DNA of 45,780 bases, taken from positions 1 to 45,780 of the forward strand of contig JARBAW010000132.1 of the NCBI GenBank assembly GCA_029237505.1. Reading direction: 5' to 3'. Shown here in pieces: positions 32,487 through 33,695 of this stretch. Source of the DNA: Nitrososphaerales archaeon (GTDB lineage Archaea; Thermoproteota; Nitrososphaeria; Nitrososphaerales; Nitrososphaeraceae). Within the stretch, counting starts at the first letter, position 1. Each line of letters opens with the position of its first letter. Made by a program: the position numbers and the translations under genes. A model generated the notes under the pieces. The model was not told where the DNA came from and searched no databases. It worked only from the letters and a program-made list of their open reading frames with translations.

Positions 32487-32594
32487 TAGGAAATTCAGAG
32501 GAATTTAGAGGAATTTGTATATTGGAGTAAACGAGAATCATGAACAAAGATATTTATCAAATGAATGAAAAAATTAGGTTAGGGGGTATTATCC

Positions 32595-33695
32595 CTGGGA
32601 ATTCCTGAAAAAATTAAAGCTATACAAGAAGAGATCCATAGGACTCAAATAAATAAAGCAACAGAATTTCATATCGGAATTCTTAAGGCTAAAATGGCCA
32701 AACTACGACGCGAACTTGACGAAAACAAGCATGGCAAGAATGTTTCTTCGGGAAAAGAAAATGAAGGCTTTAATGTCAGAAAAGCAGGCGACGCCTCAGT
32801 AGTGCTTGTGGGGCTGCCCAGTGTAGGCAAATCGACATTACTCAATGCGCTGACAAATGCGAAATCTCGTACCGGTTCCTACCAATTTACTACGCTTACC
32901 GCCATACCAGGAATGATGGAATACAATGGTTCTAAAATACAAATTCTTGATCTTCCAGGCATCGTGGAAGGGGCCTCCAAAGGTAGAGGGCTTGGTAGGA
33001 AAGTTCTTTCAGTAGCAAGAAACGCGGATCTAGTCTTAATGATATTGGATGTCTTTCAACCAGAGCTCTTAGGAATGCTAGAACGGGAACTTCATGAAGT
33101 TGGCATTAGGATCAACAAGAAGCTTCCGCAAGTGTTCATCGAAAGAGCTCATTATGGAGGACTCGCGGTTCACGATCAGGTCTCCAATATTCCAGATCAT
33201 CTAGTCAAGGAAATCCTCAGAATTCATGGCATTAATAATGGTCGCATAATCATTAAGGAGCCAAATCTCTCGATAGAGCAGCTAATAGATGTCGTTACAG
33301 GAAATAGAATTTATCTGCCTGCACTTGTGGTGTTAAACAAGATCGATCTAGTCGATGGGAAATTTATCTCTCAAATTGGAAAAAAGGTTCAAGATTTTAT
33401 TCCCATTTCTGCAGATCGGAAAATAAACATTGATGATTTAAAGAAGTTGATATATGACAAACTAGCTTTTATCAGAATTTTCCTAAAACCTAAAGGTGAC
33501 AAAATTGACGAAGATCCGCTAATAATGAACCAAAATTGCACTATTCGCGATGTTTGTCTAAAAATTCACAGGAATTTTGTCAGGGACTTTAAGTATGCTT
33601 ATGTTTGGGGCAGTAGTGTGAAATTTAGTTCCCAGAAAGTAGGATTGGATCACAGGCTGAAGGACAAGGACGTATTGAGAATCATATTGAAGTAA
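32595..33695 (+). CDS. DRG family GTPase (OBG-HflX superfamily), N-terminus extended to a CTG codon
   Basis: LGIPEKIKAIQEEIHRTQINKATEFHIGILKAK precedes tracked Met at 32694; GLPSVGKSTLLNALTNAKS, DLPGIVEGA, NKIDL; C-terminal TGS domain. Confidence 0.88.
   Translation: MGIPEKIKAIQEEIHRTQINKATEFHIGILKAKMAKLRRELDENKHGKNVSSGKENEGFNVRKAGDASVVLVGLPSVGKSTLLNALTNAKSRTGSYQFTTLTAIPGMMEYNGSKIQILDLPGIVEGASKGRGLGRKVLSVARNADLVLMILDVFQPELLGMLERELHEVGIRINKKLPQVFIERAHYGGLAVHDQVSNIPDHLVKEILRIHGINNGRIIIKEPNLSIEQLIDVVTGNRIYLPALVVLNKIDLVDGKFISQIGKKVQDFIPISADRKINIDDLKKLIYDKLAFIRIFLKPKGDKIDEDPLIMNQNCTIRDVCLKIHRNFVRDFKYAYVWGSSVKFSSQKVGLDHRLKDKDVLRIILK

Follow-up and report, generated by a model that had tools for sequence, protein, structure and literature searches.

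A DRG GTPase gene very probably translated from CUG behind a strong Shine-Dalgarno element across a genus of Nitrososphaeraceae

In Escherichia coli, the translation-linked gene infC (IF3) starts at AUU, a near-cognate start that is kept across related species. The archaeal DRG gene described here is similar, in that its start also lies outside AUG, GUG and UUG, is kept among relatives and belongs to a translation-linked gene. It differs in using CUG instead of AUU, and in that feedback by the product belongs to infC and is only a candidate for DRG. In general, weak starts tend toward compensation by stronger Shine-Dalgarno (SD) elements (Belinky et al. 2017, PMC5622118). At DRG the same trend is found within one gene, with SD strength increasing from ATG over TTG to CTG. 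In that earlier study, by contrast, switches to CUG were nearly absent, being among the rarest counted (2 of 61,358 AUG starts), and CUG was omitted from the start/SD coupling analysis. CUG makes up 0.024% of starts in bacterial annotation and initiates at 0.86% of AUG output in E. coli reporters (both figures quoted in PMC11497404). Given this efficiency, a strong reliance on CUG is unusual, and the SD probably matters for function. Starts of the DRG kind are rare but have precedents, and this one is unusually well conserved.

The window, the whole stretch of 45,780 nucleotides that was analysed, is a contig of a 1.74 Mb Nitrososphaeraceae MAG (G000; 189 contigs). Its genus, here called g1, is probably TA-21, a name inferred by us; the members match public Nitrososphaeraceae MAGs by identity and position, namely TA_21 (VBPX01), TH703, TH1920, OS2.4, nzgw15, HEB2_70 and others. 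We consider it very likely that the complete DRG of this genus is translated from the CUG at 32595 by means of a strong SD, and that this SD/CUG pair was fixed in the genus ancestor. The coordinates of the features are collected in Table 1.

Table 1. Features of the DRG locus (window coordinates) and of further genus genes with odd starts (locus coordinates)
Feature	Location	Strand	Description
Full-length DRG GTPase CDS	32595..33695	+	CTG start, TAA stop, 366 aa; HTH, G domain with MMR_HSR1_Xtn insert, TGS
CTG start codon (CUG in mRNA)	32595..32597	+	Column of relatives' ATG/TTG/GTG starts; CTG in 9/9 genus members
Shine-Dalgarno element AGGGGGT	32581..32587	+	Pairs with own 16S 3' end; SD in all nine CTG genomes
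In-frame TAG closing DRG frame	32580..32582	+	Five codons upstream of CTG
TATA-box-like element GATATTTATC	32549..32558	+	ATATTTATC invariant in aligned genus members
ATG codon 34 ('tracked' start)	32694..32696	+	ATA in 6/9 genus members
RNase HII	L278:4944-5618 (G000:C154); L285-L293		In-frame stop 13-16 codons upstream; GVDEAGRG motif
HtrA-like protease	L232 about 1109-2095 (G000:C8)	minus	Relatives' TTG/ATG replaced by GTA/GTT; GGAGGA precedes ATT
TauE-like permease	L254:10443-11228 (G000:C30), L343-L347		First canonical codon deep inside protein in three genus genomes

After the TAG, the DRG frame continues with GGG GTA TTA TCC, the CTG, and then GGA ATT CCT GAA and onwards, which reads as LGIPEKIKAIQEEIHRTQINKATEFHIGILKAK. 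Between this TAG and codon 34, the window holds no ATG, GTG or TTG in the DRG frame. A sequence-only reading of the locus had already pointed to a closed frame lacking a canonical codon before the CTG, to a DRG N-terminus encoded in frame upstream of the 'tracked' ATG, and to CUG initiation as one way out, and on all of these points our analysis agrees with it. The GGGGG run (32582-32586) and the 22-codon ORF in another frame (32540-32608), which it had also described, are both present. It overlooked that the G-run is an SD and that the trait belongs to the whole genus and is specific to it; it also overlooked that six relatives have an Ile codon in place of the 'tracked' Met.

The protein itself is an ordinary member of the DRG/Rbg GTPases (Obg-HflX class), differing from yeast Rbg1 and Rbg2 in the start codon alone. 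Yeast Rbg2 (7nrc chain) aligns end to end from DRG residue 2 (E 6.6e-91), and Rbg1 (4a9a) from residue 5 (E 8.3e-90). The same domains are found in Pfam: MMR_HSR1 (PF01926, 1.7e-25), the MMR_HSR1_Xtn (S5D2L) insertion (PF16897, residues 188-291) and the C-terminal TGS (PF02824, residues 293-364). The P-loop, GLPSVGKST, covers about residues 73-81, with G-P-S-V-G-K-S-T invariant in the alignment of relatives. Residues 2-44 align with Rbg1 and Rbg2 only given a start at or near the CTG, and by this alignment the DRG N-terminal helix-turn-helix is present. Since residues 1-44 of Rbg1 form a helix-turn-helix (PMC3510508), initiation at ATG 32694 would leave DRG without an intact one.

Aligning orthologues and reading the start codon in close relatives, the check proposed by the sequence-only reading, returned CTG at the identical column in all nine g1 genomes that hold DRG (68-94% identity). 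In the other Nitrososphaeraceae genera ATG predominates at this column, TTG and GTG occur in some genomes, and CTG was found there in none of the loci sampled. Among 40 sampled genomes of the order outside the family, ATG occurs in 18, TTG in 17, GTG in 4 and CTG in 1. As TTG starts DRG in about 40% of these genomes (L077-L116), this gene often has a weak start. Scanning 400 genomes of the order, of which 305 contain DRG, with a sequence pattern retrieved CTG-start DRG only from the nine g1 members and from the isolate Nitrososphaerales archaeon JOPF053 (G120, JASHPQ010000063; L160 / L349), with the limit that the pattern fixes the G-x-P-E-K-I context and DRG genes with an altered N-terminus would escape it. 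Further CTG-GIPEKI hits in the order and phylum, beyond g1 and JOPF053, were not DRG and were dismissed: they fall in a 9-codon ORF or on Leu codons within other proteins. On the DRG protein tree the CTG label requires two changes, and well-supported branches force both: the first covers all of g1, the second JOPF053, whose sisters have TTG. As read from this tree, JOPF053 acquired its CTG start independently of g1.

The observation is far beyond chance, given the end-to-end alignment with the yeast proteins, the column shared with the relatives' starts and the fixed first codon: of 13 internal Leu columns that are invariant over the first 190 codons, not one keeps the same codon throughout the nine genomes, and the first codon is always CTG. 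Codons 2-4 (GGA ATT CCT, 32598-32606) are also nucleotide-identical in the nine genus members. Such identity is seen in only 10 of the 119 codons with an invariant amino acid (Met/Trp excluded).

The codon is accompanied by a strong SD. The 16S rRNA of G000 was located with Rfam and ends in ...GGATCACCTCCTTAA, of which the stretch AUCACCUCCUUA was paired with the leader. The AGGGGGU element forms with it a duplex of −10.7 kcal/mol, 6 nt before the CTG by duplex calculation. Pairing energies in the nine g1 genomes range from −6.3 to −12.1 (mean −9.2), while an SD is nearly absent in other genera (mean −0.5 in 35 other Nitrososphaeraceae). The CTG start of JOPF053 also has a strong SD (GAGGTGG, −11.6), and the spacing is 5-6 nt in all ten of these genomes. 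Grouped by DRG start codon, the mean SD energy is −9.4 for CTG, −4.9 for TTG and −1.5 for ATG. In 555 kb of G000, comprising 60 further contig stretches, an SD of −8 kcal/mol or stronger at good spacing is found at only 4 of the 246 starts taken at the first ATG; among 20 CTG codons lying in upstream extensions, one, that of DRG, has an SD of such strength. Because AGGGGGU pairs with the 3' end of its own 16S rRNA, and an SD is found in all nine genomes, the G-run is a ribosome-binding site and not a slip site. Its letters vary among the g1 genomes (GGGGG, GGTGG, GGCGG, AGGGG) and the CTG remains constant.

The expected transcript start is set by the usual spacing of archaeal TATA boxes. The TATA-like ATATTTATC lies 33-36 nt upstream of the CTG in all nine genomes (in the window, 36 nt separate the end of the box from the CTG), and from this position the DRG transcript probably begins near 32580. 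A leader hairpin masking the SD (GGGGU/AUCCC) was considered and rejected, as the folding energies were no better than those of shuffles (z-scores of about −0.4 to 1.3) and the predicted structures differed between genomes; a hairpin shared by the leaders was not found.

Taken together, these features suggest that the SD directly upstream would hold the 30S subunit on the weak CUG, which the initiator Met-tRNA would read with a first-position mismatch, so that Met presumably comes first. The product would be a DRG of 366 residues with a normal N-terminal helix-turn-helix, and its synthesis may be low or tunable. The SD/CUG pair would have arisen once in the genus ancestor, the CUG probably from AUG or UUG by a single base change, and would have been kept since. 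The AUU at codon 3 may serve as an extra start, but it has a longer spacing from the SD and is off the column of the relatives' starts.

How else could a DRG gene of this form be expressed? Translation could begin at ATG 32694, the first canonical codon in the DRG frame of the window, and give a shorter DRG lacking its N-terminus. We regard this as highly improbable. Codon 34 is ATA (Ile) in six of the nine genus members, and therefore ATG 32694 is not the conserved start; across the nine genomes the first in-frame ATG, GTG or TTG after the CTG is found at codons 34, 34, 34, 41, 74, 82, 82, 104 and 104, and in five of the six ATA genomes it lies in or past the P-loop. Furthermore, codons 5-33 vary synonymously while residues 1-33 are nearly invariant, which indicates that the sequence ahead of codon 34 is coding and translated. 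The sequence-only reading was thus right that the tracked Met drops a conserved N-terminus, here of 33 residues. Judged from the nine genomes, the start is non-canonical in every genus member, as none offers an ATG, GTG or TTG compatible with the conserved protein. That reading had also raised two explanations that did not hold. A sequencing or assembly error could have turned an ATG, GTG or TTG into CTG or altered the length of the G-run, and the origin of the window from a MAG in 189 contigs, with a homopolymer close by, would favour it. Yet the other eight MAGs, which come from separate records, have CTG at the identical column, and it is the G-run that changes between genomes, not the CTG, which excludes an error for practical purposes. 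Programmed +1 frameshifting at the G-run, joining the 22-codon ORF (ATG 32540) to the DRG frame, can likewise appeal to an ORF and a run that are both present in the window. However, an ATG, GTG or TTG in the ORF frame before the stop occurs only in the window, L122 and L123; the other six genomes (L117, L118, L119, L120, L121, L124) have none, which rules frameshifting out as a mechanism conserved in the genus. The G-run is moreover not kept as a slip sequence, and the TATA-like box puts ATG 32540 upstream of the probable transcript start, leaving this explanation very hard to credit.

A further possibility concerns not where translation starts but why the weak codon is kept. By analogy with AUU in infC, the weak CUG and its SD could form a regulatory device, for example for feedback on DRG synthesis. 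The retention of codon and SD throughout the genus without reversion would fit, as would the nucleotide-level fixation of codons 2-4 and the association of eukaryotic DRG proteins with polysomes (PMC3510508). Nevertheless, no leader hairpin is shared and neutral fixation with SD compensation suffices, and we think such a device rather unlikely.

SD-driven CUG initiation at DRG, kept genus-wide and gained a second time in a distant relative, each time with a strong SD, would provide a clean natural case of co-evolution between start codon and SD, in a ribosome-linked GTPase of soil archaea. It also has a practical side. Gene callers limited to ATG, GTG and TTG will truncate DRG, the loss being 33 residues in the window and 40 to 103 residues in six relatives; in five of these six the P-loop would be lost, wholly or partly.

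DRG may not be the only gene of the genus with an odd start. When the ORFs in the 555 kb of G000 were ranked by the coding potential of the stretch preceding their first canonical start, DRG came third of 76 and RNase HII second. For RNase HII, ten genus genomes were examined, and in nine of them the stretch from the in-frame stop to the catalytic G[VI]DEAGRG motif contains no ATG, GTG or TTG. An AUU start is possible for the HtrA-like gene of G000, given the replaced start and the GGAGGA before ATT. The TauE-like permease probably starts near the overlapping upstream stop, perhaps at ATT; an AUU start there is a weak lead, which we set aside because the overlapping upstream frame may, at its end, account for the conserved GGAGG and ATT. 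It is conceivable, if doubtful, that start choice is relaxed at several genes of the genus, comprising the CUG of DRG and the non-canonical start of RNase HII (nine genomes each) and perhaps AUU in the HtrA-like and TauE-like genes. If true, the genus would offer a natural setting in which to study how non-AUG starts are admitted by archaeal initiation factors and SDs. Loss of aIF1 was dismissed as a cause of relaxed starts, since a search of 12 genus genomes recovered SUI1/aIF1 from every one. Besides the best SUI1-domain match, which was taken as aIF1, there is a second or third such match in several of the genus genomes. The extra match in G000 (L336, G000:C8:811-1023) adjoins the HtrA-like gene.
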